DNA of 64,000 nucleotides. It comes from Jatrophihabitans sp. (GTDB lineage: Bacteria; Actinomycetota; Actinomycetes; Mycobacteriales; Jatrophihabitantaceae). Under the pieces are notes generated by a model. The model did not search any database and had not been told where the DNA came from. It saw nothing but the letters and a program-made list of their open reading frames with translations. Below, one piece after another: positions 3,665-53,211 of the stretch. A program made the translations under genes and the position numbers. Position 1 is the stretch's first letter. Each line of letters opens with the position of its first letter. Where the stretch lies: assembly GCA_025924515.1 (NCBI GenBank), contig JAICIE010000005.1, forward strand, positions 1 through 64,000. Direction: 5' to 3'.

Positions 3665-4951
3665 ATGAGGAGGCTGAGGTTGCACTCGAACGCGGACGTC
3701 GTTGTGGTAGGCGCGGGGCTCGCCGGTTTGGCGGCAGCGCGGGATCTCTGTGCAGCCGGGTTAGACACCGTTGTTCTGGAAGGTTCCGATTCCCCGGGAG
3801 GGCGGGTGCGCACCGACCGCGTCGACGGCTTGCTGCTCGACCGCGGCTTCCAGATCTTCCTATCCGCCTATCCGCAGGCTGCACGAGTATGGGACCTGGC
3901 CGCACTGAGATTGCGCGCGTTCGACGCCGGCCTCATGGTCTGCCACGGTCGCGGCCGCCACCTGGTCGGTGATCCGCGCCGCCTGCCCGCCGCCACCCTC
4001 TCCACCGCGAGCCTGCCGATTGGCTCGCCGCGCGAGAAAGTCGCGCTGGCGCGCTTTCTCTTGGCGTCCGCCTACGCGCCGGCGCGCGCGATCAAGCATG
4101 GCGAGGACGTCAGCCTCGGCGATGCGCTGCGGCGCCGCGGACTGACCGGACCGCTCGGGGTCGGCGTTCTCGGCACGTTTCTCGCCGGCGTCCTCGGCGG
4201 GGAGGAGATGCGCACGTCGGCGCGCTACACCCGACTCGTGATGCGGTGTTTCGTCCGCGGCGACGCCGCCGTGCCGGCGCTGGGAATGCAAGCGCTCCCG
4301 GACCAGCTCGCGGCGGCGCTACCGCACGGCGTCCTCTCTTGCAATGCGCGCGTGCGCAAGGTCACTACGGCGGGAGGCGGAGCGCACGTACAGACGGAAA
4401 ACGGTAGCGTCCGCGCACGGTCGGTGATCGTGGCCGCCGATCCGGTTACGGCGGCGGAACTTATCGGCATCCCGTCGCCGCGAATGCGGGGGCTCACGAC
4501 CTATTACCACCTCGCCCCTGACTCACCGACAACTCGGGCGCTCCTGCACATAGACGCAGCTCGCCGCGGGCCGATCGTCAATACGATCGTCCTCACGAAC
4601 GCGGCTCCCCTGTATGCGCCGGGCCGCCATCTCGTGGCATCGACCGTGCTGGGGGCCGATGCTTCGCAAGAGTCGGAGGTGCGGCGACATGCCGGCCTTA
4701 TCTACGGCGTCGGCACCGGCTCCTGGGAACACGTGCACACGTACCGCATTCCGTCCGCGCTGCCGGACCTGCCCGGCGGCGCTCCGCTGATGAAGCCGGT
4801 CGACCTCGGCAACGGCATCTTCGTCGCCGGCGACCACCGTGACACCCCGTCCATTCAGGGCGCAGTGGTGTCCGGACGCCGAGCCGCCGCAGCGGTGCTG
4901 CGGCGGCTGGCGAACCCTGGTTCCGCCGACCGTCAGGCCGCGAGGGCCTGA
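3665..4951 (+). CDS. FAD-dependent oxidoreductase (amine oxidase/phytoene desaturase-like)
   Basis: VVVVGAGLAGLAAARDLCAAGLDTVVLEGSDSPGGRVRT Rossmann motif; C-terminal GIFVAGDHRDTPSIQGAVVSGRRAA. Confidence 0.88.
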   Translation: MRRLRLHSNADVVVVGAGLAGLAAARDLCAAGLDTVVLEGSDSPGGRVRTDRVDGLLLDRGFQIFLSAYPQAARVWDLAALRLRAFDAGLMVCHGRGRHLVGDPRRLPAATLSTASLPIGSPREKVALARFLLASAYAPARAIKHGEDVSLGDALRRRGLTGPLGVGVLGTFLAGVLGGEEMRTSARYTRLVMRCFVRGDAAVPALGMQALPDQLAAALPHGVLSCNARVRKVTTAGGGAHVQTENGSVRARSVIVAADPVTAAELIGIPSPRMRGLTTYYHLAPDSPTTRALLHIDAARRGPIVNTIVLTNAAPLYAPGRHLVASTVLGADASQESEVRRHAGLIYGVGTGSWEHVHTYRIPSALPDLPGGAPLMKPVDLGNGIFVAGDHRDTPSIQGAVVSGRRAAAAVLRRLANPGSADRQAARA

Positions 4952-8083: not shown

Positions 8084-9340
8084 GTGAGCTCGGCGACGCG
8101 CGTCTTCATCGCGCGCCTCGCCGGCATCGGTGTTTTCGACCCCAACGGCGACCAACTCGGTCGAGTGCGCGACGCGGTGACCTCGCTGCGGGTCGACCGC
8201 CAGCCGCCCCGCGTCCTCGGGCTCGTCGTCGAGATCCAGCCGCGGCACCGGGTGTTCGTTCCGATGGGACGGTTGACCCGCATCGAGCCGGACCAGGTGG
8301 TCCTGTCCTCGGGCACCATCAACATGAAGCGATTCGAGCGACGGGTCAACGAGATCCTCGTCCTCGCCGAACTCCTGGATCGAACGGTCACCGTCCGCGA
8401 GGGCGGAAAGCGGGCGACCGTCGTCGACGCCGGGATGGAGCAGAGCCGCACGCGCGACTGGGTGATAACCCGCCTGGCGGTGCGGACCCCGGGCGCCAGG
8501 CTGGCGCGCCGCCGCGGTCAGCTGTTCCAGGTGGAGTGGGGCGAGGTGGACGGCCTCGCCCTGCCCGAACAGAACCAGGGCACCAACGCCCTGCTCTCGA
8601 CATTGTCGGACATGCGGCCGGCGGACGTGGCCAGTGCGCTTCTGGACATGCCGCAGAAGCGGCGCCTCGAAGTGGTCAAGGCGCTCGACGACGAGCGGCT
8701 GGCCGACATCATGCAGGAGCTCCCCGAGGACGATCAGGTCAAGATCTTCGCTGCGCTGCCCGACGAGCGGGCCGCGGACGTCCTCGAGGCAATGGACGAC
8801 GACGACGCCGCCGACCTGCTCGGGGAGATGTCCGCCGCCGACCAGCAGCGGCTTCTGCAACTGATGGAGCCCGACGAGGCCGAACCCGTGCGCCGGCTGA
8901 TGAGCTACGCCGACTACACGGCAGGAGGCCTGATGACCTCCGAACCGGTGGTCATGCTGCCTGACGCGACGGTGGCCGAGGCGCTCGCCCGCGTGCGCAA
9001 CCCCGAACTGTCCCCCGCGATCGCCGCCCAGGTCTTCGTCGTGCGGCCGCCGCAGGCCACTCCCACGGGACGATTCCTCGGCACGGCGCACCTGCAGGCA
9101 TTGCTTCGCGAGCCGCCGCACGCTCTCGTGAGCGGCATGGTCGAGAAGGACACCGGGGCGCTGCGTCCGGACACGCCGATCGACCAGGTGACGCGGCACC
9201 TGGCGACCTACAACCTCGTCGCAGCCCCCGTCGTCGACGAGCATGATCGGCTGCTCGGCGCGGTGTCTGTCGACGACGTCCTCGATCACCTTCTGCCGGA
9301 GGGGTGGCGCGACGGCGACCGGGTCGGCAGCCGTGGCTGA
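8084..9340 (+). CDS. PRC-barrel / MgtE N-terminal / CBS-pair protein lacking an MgtE channel domain
   Basis: MgtE-N helical repeat (DMRPADVASALLDMPQKRRLEVVKALDDERLADIMQELPEDDQ), two CBS domains, no hydrophobic C-terminus; resembles Mtb Rv1232c. Confidence 0.85.
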   Translation: MSSATRVFIARLAGIGVFDPNGDQLGRVRDAVTSLRVDRQPPRVLGLVVEIQPRHRVFVPMGRLTRIEPDQVVLSSGTINMKRFERRVNEILVLAELLDRTVTVREGGKRATVVDAGMEQSRTRDWVITRLAVRTPGARLARRRGQLFQVEWGEVDGLALPEQNQGTNALLSTLSDMRPADVASALLDMPQKRRLEVVKALDDERLADIMQELPEDDQVKIFAALPDERAADVLEAMDDDDAADLLGEMSAADQQRLLQLMEPDEAEPVRRLMSYADYTAGGLMTSEPVVMLPDATVAEALARVRNPELSPAIAAQVFVVRPPQATPTGRFLGTAHLQALLREPPHALVSGMVEKDTGALRPDTPIDQVTRHLATYNLVAAPVVDEHDRLLGAVSVDDVLDHLLPEGWRDGDRVGSRG

Positions 9341-9824
9341 GCCGAGGATCCGGCTGGACCAGCCGAAGGTCGAGCGGCGACCGCGGCTGCGAATGGATCC
9401 CGACGCCTTCGGGCGGCTCACCGAGCGGATAGCGCGCTTCCTCGGGACCGGCCGCTACCTGTTGTTCCAGACGGTGGTCGTCGTCGTCTGGATCTTGTGG
9501 AACACGACCGCGCCGCACCATTGGCGTTTCGACCCGTGGGCCCCGACAAAATTCATCTTCCTGACGCTGATCTTGTCCTTGCAGGCCTCCTACTCCGCGC
9601 CGCTGATCCTCCTGGCGCAGAACCGGCAGGACGACCGCGACCGGGTCAACCTCGAGGCCGACCGCGACGAAGCCCGCCAGTCGAAGGCCGATCTCGAGTA
9701 CCTGGCGCGGGAGCTCGCCGCGATCCGGATGGCGCTCGGCGAGGTCGCGACCCGTGACTTCCTCCGCTCCGAACTGGCGCGGGTGGAGGCGGCGCGGGAG
9801 CGCGAGGAGGAGCGCGTCGACTGA
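9333..9824 (+). CDS. DUF1003 membrane protein
   Basis: FGRLTERIARFLGTGRYLLFQTVVVVVWILWNT...FILTLILSLQASYSAPLILLAQNRQDDRDR; GTG start overlapping upstream gene. Confidence 0.9.
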   Translation: MAEPRIRLDQPKVERRPRLRMDPDAFGRLTERIARFLGTGRYLLFQTVVVVVWILWNTTAPHHWRFDPWAPTKFIFLTLILSLQASYSAPLILLAQNRQDDRDRVNLEADRDEARQSKADLEYLARELAAIRMALGEVATRDFLRSELARVEAAREREEERVD

Positions 9825-9833
9825 CTCCCGGGC

Positions 9834-9940
9834 GCAGCGCGGCGGGTGCCTTGCCGAGGGCACGACCGGCACCGCGGCGGGGTGCCTTGCCGAGGGCACG
9901 ACCGGCAGCGCGGCCGGGGTGCGTGCCTAGGGCACGACCC
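9834..9940. repeat. Three 35/36-bp tandem repeats that include the azlD stop region
   Basis: Units 9834-9868, 9869-9904, 9905-9940: GCASCGCGGCSGGGTGCCTTGCCGAGGGCACGACCG; each has a GTGCC...GGCAC stem. Confidence 0.88.
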
Positions 9941-10244
9941 GCAGCGCGGCGGCGACCACGGCGGCGAGGACGATCACGACGAGGAAGGGCGCGCGCCGCC
10001 AGACCGCCACCGCTCCGGCGGCGAACCCGGCGATGCGGGCTGCGTCGATGTCATAGGAGCTGCCGGCGGCCAGCAATTCCACCACCACCAGCGCAGCGAG
10101 TAGGGCGACCGGCAGCAGCGAGACCGCGCGGCGCACGGCCGGACGGTCCAGCACCCGCGGAGGGAGCACATAGCCGATGATCTTGAGCAGATAACAGCCC
10201 GCGCACGTCCCGGCCACCAGCACCCACAGCGACCCGTCGCTCAC
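9927..10244 (-). CDS. azlD: AzlD family branched-chain amino-acid transport protein
   Basis: 105 aa small TM protein directly downstream of azlC. Confidence 0.85.
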   Translation of the reverse strand: MSDGSLWVLVAGTCAGCYLLKIIGYVLPPRVLDRPAVRRAVSLLPVALLAALVVVELLAAGSSYDIDAARIAGFAAGAVAVWRRAPFLVVIVLAAVVAAALRVVP

Positions 10245-11447: not shown

Positions 11448-12584
11448 GTGTCCGCCGCCCCCGACCTGGCTGTCGTCCGCGCTGCCCTGGCGCGCGTCGA
11501 CGACCCCGAGATCCGCAAGCCGATCACCGATCTCGACATGGTCGACTCGGTCGAGGTCGGTCCGGACGGCACGGTCCGCGTGCGCGTCCTGCTCACCATC
11601 GCCGGTTGCCCGATGCGCGAGCAGCTCAGCCGCGACGTCACCTCGGCGTTGCGTTCGGTTCCGGGCGTGACCGACGTCGACCTGCAGCTCGGCGTCATGT
11701 CCGACACGCAACGCACGGCGCTACGGCAGAAGCTGCGCGGCGACGCACCGGCGAACGAGATCCCGTTCGCCCAGCCGGGTTCGCGCACCCGGGTGTACGC
11801 GGTGGCTTCGGGCAAGGGCGGCGTGGGCAAGTCCTCGGTCACGGTCAACCTGGCGGCGGCGCTCTCGGCGCGGGGCCTGTCGGTCGGCGTGGTCGACGCG
11901 GACATCTACGGGTTCTCGGTGCCCCGCATGCTGGGCGTCAGCGGCAAGCCCACCCAGGTCGACAGGATGATCATGCCGCCCGTCGCCCGCGGCGTGAAGG
12001 TCATCTCCATCGGCATGTTCACCCCCGGCAACACCGCGGTGGTGTGGCGCGGGCCGATGCTGCACCGGGCGTTGCAGCAGTTCCTGGCCGACGTCTTCTG
12101 GGGCGACCTCGACGTGCTGCTGATGGACCTGCCGCCGGGGACCGGCGACATCGCCATCTCCGTCGCGCAGCTCGTTCCCTCCGCCGAACTGCTCGTCGTC
12201 ACCACCCCGCAGCTCGCGGCCCGGGAGGTCGCCGAGCGTGCCGGGTCCATCGCGCTGCAGACCCACCAGCAGATCGTGGGCGTCGTCGAGAACATGAGTT
12301 GGCTCGACCTTCCGGACGGCAGCCGGATGGAGCTCTTCGGCTCCGGCGGAGGTTCGGCCCTCGCCGAGTCGCTGAGCCGCTCGACCGGCACCCGGGTGCC
12401 GCTGCTCGGTCAGGTCCCGATCGACCCGCGGGTCCGGGAAGGCGGCGACGCCGGCGAGCCGGTCGTCCTCGCCGCGCCGGACTCCCCGGCCGCCCGAGCG
12501 CTGCGGTCGGTCGCCGACGCGCTCGCGCAGCGCCAGTCGTCTCTCGTCGGGCGCTCGCTCGGCCTGGCGCCGACGCGCCGCTGA
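11448..12584 (+). CDS. mrp: Mrp/ApbC-type Fe-S carrier P-loop ATPase
   Basis: N-terminal MIP18 domain, VYAVASGKGGVGKSSVTVNLAAALSARGLSVGVVDADIYG, MSWLDLPDG. Confidence 0.93.
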   Translation: MSAAPDLAVVRAALARVDDPEIRKPITDLDMVDSVEVGPDGTVRVRVLLTIAGCPMREQLSRDVTSALRSVPGVTDVDLQLGVMSDTQRTALRQKLRGDAPANEIPFAQPGSRTRVYAVASGKGGVGKSSVTVNLAAALSARGLSVGVVDADIYGFSVPRMLGVSGKPTQVDRMIMPPVARGVKVISIGMFTPGNTAVVWRGPMLHRALQQFLADVFWGDLDVLLMDLPPGTGDIAISVAQLVPSAELLVVTTPQLAAREVAERAGSIALQTHQQIVGVVENMSWLDLPDGSRMELFGSGGGSALAESLSRSTGTRVPLLGQVPIDPRVREGGDAGEPVVLAAPDSPAARALRSVADALAQRQSSLVGRSLGLAPTRR

Positions 12585-12662
12585 CCCCGCCCCGCGCTCC
12601 GGGGTGACGTCGGGCTAGGGAAAGACACCCGTTCCACCCCGGACTGGCAGTTCTGGCCCCGA

Positions 12663-12720
12663 GCCCCAGGCCCGACCGGCAGTTCACCCGGGCCCCAGGC
12701 CCGACCGGCAGTTCACCCGG
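12663..12720. repeat. Two perfect 29-bp tandem repeats
   Basis: GCCCCAGGCCCGACCGGCAGTTCACCCGG at 12663-12691 and 12692-12720. Confidence 0.9.
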
Positions 12721-12800
12721 GCGAACGCCCCAGCGTCCGCGCCCCCACCACGCCGGTTCCCCGCGTGCCCGGGTACCCGCCCAGTCCCCCCGGTTCCCCG

Positions 12801-13040
12801 GTTTGCATTCGGCAAACGGGTTGGCAAACGCGGCAAACCGCGGCGCATCCGGTTTGGCGGATGCAAACCATCCGGCGCAGCCGGTTTGCCGGATGCAAAC
12901 CGCGGCGCAGCCGGTTTGCCGGATGCAAACCATCCGGCGCAGCCGGTTTGCCGGATGCAAACCGCGGCGCAGCCGATTTGCCGGATGCAAACCATCCGGC
13001 GCAGCCGCGGCGCAGCCGGTTGGCAAACGCGGCAAACCGA
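12801..13040. repeat. Palindromic minisatellite with alternating 30/32-bp units (62-bp higher-order period)
   Basis: Repeated GGTTTGC-CGGAT-GCAAACC hairpins separated by GCGGCGCAGCC or ATCCGGCGCAGCC; flanked by identical 22-bp GGTTGGCAAACGCGGCAAACCG at 12819-12840 and 13018-13039. Confidence 0.93.
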
Positions 13041-13138
13041 CCGCCGAGGGAAGGACCCGGCTTGGACCGGGCGCGAAAGGCTGTGCGGCACGGTTGCACC
13101 TTGCCGGGCGGACCCGCCGGGCCACGGCGGCGACCGCC

Positions 13139-13178
13139 GCGGCCGACACCTCTACGTCGCGGCCGACACCCCTACGTC
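13139..13178. repeat. 20-bp tandem duplication containing the tatB stop codon
   Basis: GCGGCCGACACCTCTACGTC / GCGGCCGACACCCCTACGTC; tatB stop is CTA at 13172-13174. Confidence 0.8.
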
Positions 13179-13600
13179 GCGTCCGGGTCGAACGGCACTG
13201 TCTCGTCGCGACCGAGCGGTAGCTGCTGCGCCGGCGGCTGCTTGCCCAGCGACACCGGCTCGTCCTCCTCGAACGCGGTCCGCACCGCGGCGCGTGGGTC
13301 GTCCTCGCTCTCGAACAGGCCGCGCACGGCCCGGCGCGGGTCCGCCTCGCGCCAGTCGTCCTCGTCGCCCAGGATCGCGCGTTGCAGCGCGGTCCGCGGA
13401 TTCAGGCTGCGCAGATCGAGATCGGCGAACTCGGGGCCGAGCTCGTCACGCAACTGCTCGCGGGCGCCGGTGGCCAGGTCGCGGAGGGTGCGCAGCATCC
13501 GGCCGGCGTCACGGGCGAGGTTCGGCAGCTTGTCCGGACCGATGACGAGCAGGCCGACGATGGCGAGCACCAGGAACTCCATCGGCCCGACGTTGAACAC
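13172..13600 (-). CDS. tatB: Sec-independent protein translocase TatB
   Basis: MFNVGPMEFLVLAIVGLLVIGPDKLPNLARDAGRMLRTLRDLA. Confidence 0.92.
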   Translation of the reverse strand: MFNVGPMEFLVLAIVGLLVIGPDKLPNLARDAGRMLRTLRDLATGAREQLRDELGPEFADLDLRSLNPRTALQRAILGDEDDWREADPRRAVRGLFESEDDPRAAVRTAFEEDEPVSLGKQPPAQQLPLGRDETVPFDPDAT

Positions 13601-48489: not shown

Positions 48490-48804
48490 GTGGAGATCAC
48501 CCGCGATTCGGCCGACGACGGCGCTGCGGTGTTGCGCGTCACCGGCGACATGGAAGCTGACACCGCCTATCAGGTGCCGGACGAGGTAGCGGCCCTGTTC
48601 GACGTCGCAAGCCCGCGCGAGGTCGTCCTCGACCTGTCCGGCGTCACGTTCCTCGATTCGGTCGGCCTCGGGATGCTGGTGCGGGCCCAGGACGAGGCCC
48701 TCGCCCACGACGCCGGTTTCCGGCTGCGTGCCCCCAGCGAGCCGGTGAGCCGGATCCTGTCGATCACCGCCATGGACACGCACTTCGCCGTCGTTGCGAG
48801 CTGA
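48490..48804 (+). CDS. STAS-domain anti-sigma factor antagonist
   Basis: EVVLDLSGVTFLDSVGLGMLVRAQDEA. Confidence 0.9.
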   Translation: MEITRDSADDGAAVLRVTGDMEADTAYQVPDEVAALFDVASPREVVLDLSGVTFLDSVGLGMLVRAQDEALAHDAGFRLRAPSEPVSRILSITAMDTHFAVVAS

Positions 48805-48896
48805 GGCCGTCGTTGCGAGCTGAGGCCGTCGTTGCGAGCTGAGGCCGTCGTTGCGAGCTGAGCGTCGTTCCGAGCTCAGCGTCGTTCCGAGCTGAT
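48787..48896. repeat. Stop-codon-containing tandem repeat: 4 perfect 19-bp + 2 diverged 17-bp units
   Basis: GCCGTCGTTGCGAGCTGAG at 48787, 48806, 48825, 48844, then CGTCGTTCCGAGCTSAK at 48863 and 48880. Confidence 0.95.
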
Positions 48897-51915: not shown

Positions 51916-53211
51916 GGACTGCGCTCCCGGCAGCCACCTGGTGGCCAGGAGCCCGGCCGCGAGGACGGGAACGCAGATCACAACGGTGGTCGCGGCCACA
52001 CCCAGCGACCGGCTGCCGAAACCGTAGACGGCGAACACGGCGAGGACGCCTGCCTCAGCCGCCAGGTTGACCAGCGAGGTGACCGTGGCTCGGCACTCGT
52101 CGGGAACTGTGTGCTGTAGCCGCCCCTGTGCGACCACCATCGCCGTATTGAGAAGGCCGTAGCCGGCTGCCAGCGCGACGAACCAGCCCAGCGGCCGTGC
52201 CGCCGCTCCGACGGCGACCAGGACCGCTGCGGCACAGACGACCGCACCGAACCGGCGCGGGCTGAGCCGGTCGGCGCGGCCGGCCAGAGCCGTGCCGGCC
52301 ACCTGCCCCGCCGTAGCAATGGCGAGCAGCACGGGCACGAGCGGGGTCGCGGCCCCGTGCTCGCGTGCCAGCAGCGGCAGGTACTCGTCGAAGGAGCAGG
52401 CACCCACGAGCACCGCGATGCCCACCGTCAGCCGCCGGGGCGTGGCGAACGGGACAGCAGCGAGGAGGCCCGAGCGCAACGCCGGGGCGAGGCGGTCGGT
52501 TAGTCCGCTCGGCGGTTGCGGGATGGGCGGTTGCGGGCTCGGCAGTTGCGCGCTCGGCAGTTGCGCGCTCGGCAGTTGCGCGCTCGCCGGTCGCGGGCTC
52601 GCCGGTCGCGGGCTCGCCGGTCGCGGGCTCGCCGGCTGCGGGCTCGGCGGTTGCGGGATGGGCGAAGGCGCGCTGCTCCGCGGCGGCGCGCTCGGCAACG
52701 GCGCCCGGGGCAGGAGGGCTACCACCAAGCCCTGCAGCACGACCATCGCGATGCTGCACCCACCGACCAAGCCGTAGCCGCCCACCGCCATCAACGGCGA
52801 CGCCACGAGGATGCCGGCGAGCGCGGCGGCGGCGCACAGGCTCTCCGTCGTACCGAGGACTCGCGTGTAGTGCTCGCGGGCTCCCGTCCTCGCCAACTCG
52901 TCGTAGAGCAGCGCCTCCCACGCGCCGGAGGACAGGGCTCCGCTCAGTCCCCACAGCACGAACCCGGCCGCGAAGCCAGCGAACGTCTGCGCGAACGTCC
53001 ACAGGACGAAGCAGCCGGCGAAGCATGCGGACGCCGCCGCGAGCGCGAGCCGCCGGGAGACCAGGTCGGCGAGAACCCCGGAAGGGACCTCCGCCGCGAA
53101 ACTGGTCACCGACCACACGGCGAAGAGCAGCGAGATCCCCGCCGGCGACACCCCGCGGTCGGTGAATAGGAGGGGGTAGACGGCGTAGAGGGGGACGAAG
53201 TCCCCGGTCAC
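51721..53211 (-). CDS. MFS transporter with proline-rich central loop; C-terminus reads antisense into gtrA
   Basis: 12-TM-like MFS; no stop in frame until 51721. Confidence 0.82.
   Translation of the reverse strand: MTGDFVPLYAVYPLLFTDRGVSPAGISLLFAVWSVTSFAAEVPSGVLADLVSRRLALAAASACFAGCFVLWTFAQTFAGFAAGFVLWGLSGALSSGAWEALLYDELARTGAREHYTRVLGTTESLCAAAALAGILVASPLMAVGGYGLVGGCSIAMVVLQGLVVALLPRAPLPSAPPRSSAPSPIPQPPSPQPASPRPASPRPASPRPASAQLPSAQLPSAQLPSPQPPIPQPPSGLTDRLAPALRSGLLAAVPFATPRRLTVGIAVLVGACSFDEYLPLLAREHGAATPLVPVLLAIATAGQVAGTALAGRADRLSPRRFGAVVCAAAVLVAVGAAARPLGWFVALAAGYGLLNTAMVVAQGRLQHTVPDECRATVTSLVNLAAEAGVLAVFAVYGFGSRSLGVAATTVVICVPVLAAGLLATRWLPGAQSSGGQLLVEVRAGIAHPVGMQKDEPLVGPEPEDGSQADRADIDDEHDGAAVREAQRVDEQREDQQ
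52510..52659. repeat. In-frame 15-bp minisatellite (10 units) in MFS central loop
   Basis: Units such as CGGCAGTTGCGCGCT x3 and CGCCGGTCGCGGGCT x3; encodes (PQPPS/AQLPS/PRPAS)n. Confidence 0.93.

Follow-up and report, generated by a model that had tools for sequence, protein, structure and literature searches.

Intergenic minisatellites built from a dispersed unit are known in actinobacteria from the MIRU/VNTR loci of Mycobacterium, whose units, however, are direct and not palindromic like the element described here. REPINs are doublets of REP sequences that form hairpins and occur in tandem clusters including flanking DNA (PLoS Genet 2011, PMC3116915), and REP/REPIN copy numbers usually exceed 100 per genome (PMC2817692). 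For the repeat between mrp and tatB in the window (the whole stretch of 64,000 nucleotides that was analyzed), a literature search for actinobacterial precedents returned nothing close. The locus probably belongs to a species-private family of 71-bp, non-coding, palindromic dispersed repeats of REPIN/MITE-like build, whose right arm would have been amplified at this site. Its features are as follows.

11448-12584, + strand: mrp (NUBPL/ParA-type Fe-S carrier), convergent neighbor (Pfam PF10609)
12799-12869, + strand: complete 71-bp palindromic element, the window copy of the dispersed family (alignment with 11 other full copies; 90.6 bits with the family model)
12800-12820, + strand: left inverted arm GGTTTGCATTCGGCAAACGGG (alignment of copies; inverted repeats)
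12819-12840, + strand: core box copy 1 (GGTTGGCAAACGCGGCAAACCG), the internal core of the element
12849-12869, + strand: right inverted arm CCGGTTTGGCGGATGCAAACC (alignment of copies)
12841-12869, + strand: array unit A1, the right arm of the original element (sequence reading)
12870-12901, + strand: array unit B1, 32 bp (sequence reading and Tandem Repeats Finder)
12902-12931, + strand: array unit A2, 30 bp (sequence reading and Tandem Repeats Finder)
12932-12963, + strand: array unit B2, 32 bp (sequence reading and Tandem Repeats Finder)
12964-12993, + strand: array unit A3, 30 bp, GATTTGC variant (sequence reading and Tandem Repeats Finder)
12994-13017, + strand: truncated B unit (B3) with an 11-bp duplication, CGGCGCAGCCG twice (sequence reading and Tandem Repeats Finder)
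13018-13039, + strand: core box copy 2, same sequence as copy 1
13172-13600, − strand: tatB-like gene (TatA_B_E; TatA/B family protein), convergent neighbor (Pfam PF02416)

The sequence-only reading had described alternating 30- and 32-bp units with a 62-bp period between two convergent genes. Tandem Repeats Finder confirmed the period at 12833-13007 (2.8 copies, 97% matches, score 329) and also called a 32-bp sub-period within the array, while the Pfam matches on opposite strands confirmed the convergent neighbors. The proposed amplification of a dimer is supported by the same alternation, and a CRISPR, with its identical repeats and unique spacers, had rightly been dismissed, as the units lie head to tail without spacers. 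Rfam gave sub-threshold matches only and no family above the gathering score. With regard to the borders, the earlier description had to be revised. The two 22-bp boxes (12819-12840 and 13018-13039) said to bracket the array are indeed identical, but the left one, which comprises the core and neighboring bases, is an internal part of the 71-bp element and not an array border. Likewise, the array is real, but it had been framed too narrowly, since the left inverted arm GGTTTGCATTCGGCAAAC (12800-12817) also belongs to the repeat, and the start was therefore set at approximately 12799. As the left box is the core of the element, whose right arm is repeated in the hairpin units, the locus consists of a complete element (12799-12869), followed by the amplified right arm and a second copy of the core.

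Element and array together span 241 bp, which would be longer than a typical short read, and the draft is fragmented into 253 contigs with a completeness of 82.6%. Both points count in favor of an assembly artefact, by which the copy number, the alternation, and the second core box would in part have been created. However, the units can be told apart by their own variants (GGTTTGG in A1, GATTTGC in A3), so the assembler did not simply multiply a single unit, and we regard an artefact as very unlikely. Further tandem repeats were observed elsewhere in the window. A second intergenic array at 9834-9952 (36-bp unit, 3.3 copies, no special fold) lies between a small upstream ORF on the + strand (9243-9824) and a convergent gene, and it had weak matches only elsewhere in the genome; a 19-bp repeat with 5.9 copies was found at 48787-48895, and a 15-bp repeat with 10 copies lies inside a predicted gene at 52507-52657.

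The genome-wide search suggested in the sequence-only reading found copies elsewhere, in agreement with its description of a dispersed, REP-like palindromic repeat and contrary to the case of a locus standing alone. In the 3.70 Mb searched, from which approximately 17% of the genome is missing, the pattern matched 26 times, compared with 0 matches for a reversed-pattern control. With a model derived from an alignment of the copies, 12 full copies (68-91 bits) were recovered at 10 loci, all of them intergenic. The matches of the model on the opposite strand are the same 12 copies, because a palindrome must give both readings, apart from these, the model matched sections of the array in the window, and a single match of 21 bits was attributed to chance. 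Two partial copies are located at contig ends, at the start of C75 and at the end of C31. The latter (L094, 5243-5276) is a half-element with an inner CAGCC like that of the window array units, and it is possibly another amplified arm or part of an unassembled longer element.

The consensus CGGTTTGCATTCGGCAAACGGGTCGGCAAACGCGGCAAACCGnGGCGCnnCCCGTTTGCCGGATGCAAACC was built from the 12-copy alignment by choosing the commoner arm variants; in it, a core with GGCAAAC twice is flanked by inverted arms of 21 bp each. The conserved core pattern is GGCAAAC-GC-GGCAAACC, set between the arm GGTTTGCATTCGGCAAACGGG and its near-complement, and the copies end in C(G/C)GTTTGC and GCAAAC(C/G). Conservation reaches 0.92-0.96 in the outer left arm, the core, and the right arm, compared with 0.58-0.69 in the left inner arm and the loop. 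As single-stranded DNA hairpins, the eight copies tested had z-scores of −2.3 to −7.8, and in the structure favored by RNAalifold, the core and the right arm form a stem in addition to the outer one, while the left inner arm is a bulge. Across the aligned arms, 81% of the cells are paired and 8 of the 21 pairs are invariant, but compensatory changes are absent (0/21 pairs changed on both sides), so sequence blocks are conserved rather than pairing as such. These blocks (TTTGCAT, GGCAAAC, GTTTGCC, and ATGCAAAC) are near-invariant despite a mean identity of 79% among the copies, as would be expected if the repeat were a multi-copy binding site, conserved because a nucleoid-associated protein, gyrase, or a regulator recognizes GTTTGC-N5-GCAAAC. 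Since approximately 12 copies are few for a nucleoid-wide site, and the repeat was not found in members of the family, this explanation is highly improbable. The block conservation itself could equally well result from selection for a host function.

Gene calls for the placement of the copies were made with a codon-usage script. The neighbors are mostly housekeeping genes, namely mrp and tatB, an SCP/MDMPI-domain gene after a purL-like gene, and a uracil-DNA-glycosylase-family gene together with uvrA; others include an FMN-dependent dehydrogenase gene, the Bax-inhibitor-1/thiolase pair, a YebC-type gene, WYL/PafC regulators, an ftsY-like gene, and an ETF-alpha gene. Three of the six resolvable gaps are convergent, three are co-directional, and none is divergent, whereas 10 of the 28 gaps that reach 70 bp in the window are divergent; as the sites are so few, this avoidance is only suggestive. 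The orientation would nevertheless suit hairpins that serve the host at the 3′ ends of genes, as bidirectional transcription terminators or mRNA stabilizers kept by selection. So would the strong single-stranded (RNA) fold of the array, which was better than 200 of 200 dinucleotide shuffles on both strands (z-scores of −6.1 and −4.9).

The comparison with relatives speaks against such a function. They keep the convergent order of mrp and tatB, yet the gap of 587 bp found here compares with only 2-128 bp in 14 of the 15 gaps measured in relatives, a count confined to loci that contain mrp and are stored in one orientation; the remaining gap, of 758 bp, owes its length to an additional reading frame between the genes. 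Similarly, the gap between the Bax-inhibitor and thiolase genes is 503 bp here versus 12-223 bp in relatives. With gaps longer than those of relatives at both loci, DNA was therefore most likely gained in this lineage, and at mrp-tatB the gained DNA comprises other small tandem repeats in addition to element and array (241 bp). Two of these small repeats, at 12658-12722 (29 bp, 2.2 copies) and 13138-13185 (20 bp, 2.4 copies), add to the unusual gap length. Orthologous convergent pairs thus manage without the repeat, even at gaps down to 2 bp; moreover, no terminator-like site (GC stem, then T tract) is present in 12799-13039, and the lack of compensatory changes points in the same direction. 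We consequently consider a host-serving 3′-end element unlikely, and the terminator that had been proposed specifically for the mrp-tatB pair found no support. Judged by the gap lengths, the array is apparently a lineage-specific insertion and expansion and not a conserved terminator.

The restriction to this lineage was also seen in the searches for homologues. Within 23 other genomes of the same family, covering 11 other genera, the family model found nothing convincing and gave one weak match of 30 bits, and a pattern scan of the GTDB representatives yielded 20 scattered single matches compared with approximately 15 expected by chance. No plasmid or phage homologues of the element were found, and viral contigs contributed 3 single matches only. 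Matches in relatives with E-values of 3e-4 to 1e-2 mostly covered the GC-rich CGGCGCAGCCG stretch and were rejected as compositional.

Within the genome, local duplication is not confined to the window. At three loci (C26, C152, and C75), the element was duplicated in tandem together with flanking DNA, giving two copies each. After duplication, the element appeared better conserved than its flanks at C26 (p of 0.03-0.05) but not at C152 (p of 0.2), and this comparison was not used as evidence. A 23-bp tandem repeat in which CCGGTTTGCCGG occurs lies directly upstream of an element copy on C152 (L087, approximately 3820-3905) and is perhaps derived from the arm of the element.

The dependence on a RAYT considered in the sequence-only reading found no support. 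The Y1_Tnp profile (PF01797) had 0 matches in the own genome (82.6% complete) and in the 23 family members, while it was positive in 5 of 14 control genomes; because Y1 is absent family-wide, a RAYT is unlikely despite the missing 17% or so of the genome. Nor did the assembly, with this fraction missing and with Y1, PF00872, and PF01609 as the transposases searched, contain a parent element with the same ends. An intact-looking IS256-family element with 34-bp inverted ends is present on C100 (L172, 1061-2437), but it was rejected as the parent, as its ends (GGGTCTGTCCGGCTAACGG) are unrelated to the repeat; the weak 21-bit model match lies on the same contig, inside a predicted ORF, and was discarded as well. 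DDE_Tnp_1 gave one weak match. A consistent target-site duplication was not found among the loci: with the best of 324 settings, the shared boundary gave matching 2-bp sequences at 4 of 9 loci versus 1 expected, and the flanks are GC-rich.

These results bear on a narrower version of the preferred explanation, in which the repeat is a classical MITE, derived by internal deletion from a DDE insertion sequence whose terminal inverted repeats it would share. Its length of 71 bp with 21-bp terminal inverted repeats would agree with such an origin, and so would the position of the copies. A copy lies within 1 kb of the end in 7 of the 11 copy-bearing contigs, whereas 13.7% would be expected (binomial p of 0.0002, computed after the pattern had been seen), and the half-copy on C31 ends its contig. 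At these points, the assembly could have been interrupted by a parent element present in several copies, or by other repeats. On the other hand, no full-length element with these ends is found in the assembly, no consistent target-site duplication was seen, and the intact IS256 copy has different ends. A classical MITE therefore seems possible but doubtful.

For the broader reading, a species-private REPIN/MITE-like family, we propose that copies spread to intergenic sites beside core genes, presumably by transposition in trans with an enzyme that has been lost, is unassembled, or went unrecognized. The family would be mobile and would probably lack a dedicated host function. At mrp-tatB, the hairpin of the right arm would then have been amplified as a dimer of 30 and 32 bp by replication slippage, template switching, or unequal exchange at the hairpins, turning the site into a minisatellite and carrying a second copy of the core along. 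Hairpin-promoted slippage or template switching would be the simplest account of an array built from a single arm. A bolder version, in which an enzyme class new to REP-like repeats spread the family in a lineage without Y1, and in which single-arm hairpin amplification is a built-in tendency, is quite unlikely. The locus is of interest because it shows how a dispersed, hairpin-based repeat can develop into a minisatellite: the intact 71-bp element stands beside its amplified arm, in a lineage in which no REP transposase of the usual type was found. If a mobilizing enzyme were identified, REP-like mobility would be extended beyond RAYTs. For the species, the array might also provide a variable-number marker.

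Finally, the element was compared with the known systems. Like REPINs, it is an extragenic inverted doublet that forms a long hairpin, in which two inverted, conserved arms flank a part of lower conservation, and its tandem copies with flanking DNA at C26, C152, and C75 recall REPIN clusters (PMC3116915). It differs in the lack of a RAYT in the genome or family, in the approximately 12 copies versus hundreds (12 full copies in 3.7 Mb of an incomplete assembly), in the absence of compensatory changes, and in its conserved internal core. With BIME-2 and the tagged REP families (GTAG, CGTC; PMC3733652, PMC2817692), it shares extragenic palindromes, clustered copies, and tandem reiteration. However, neither a GTAG nor a CGTC tag is present at the ends of the 12 aligned copies, no Y1 transposase was found, the unit measures 71 bp versus 20-40 bp, and the units of the window array all have the same orientation, whereas those of BIME-2 alternate. 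As a short, non-coding, dispersed element with 21-bp arms as terminal inverted repeats, it also resembles MITEs, except that neither a parent insertion sequence nor a consistent target-site duplication was found. Its architecture is REPIN/MITE-like, but membership among the REPINs fails at the transposase, the tag, and the copy number. The repeat is therefore best read as a new, species-private family of a general kind that is already known.
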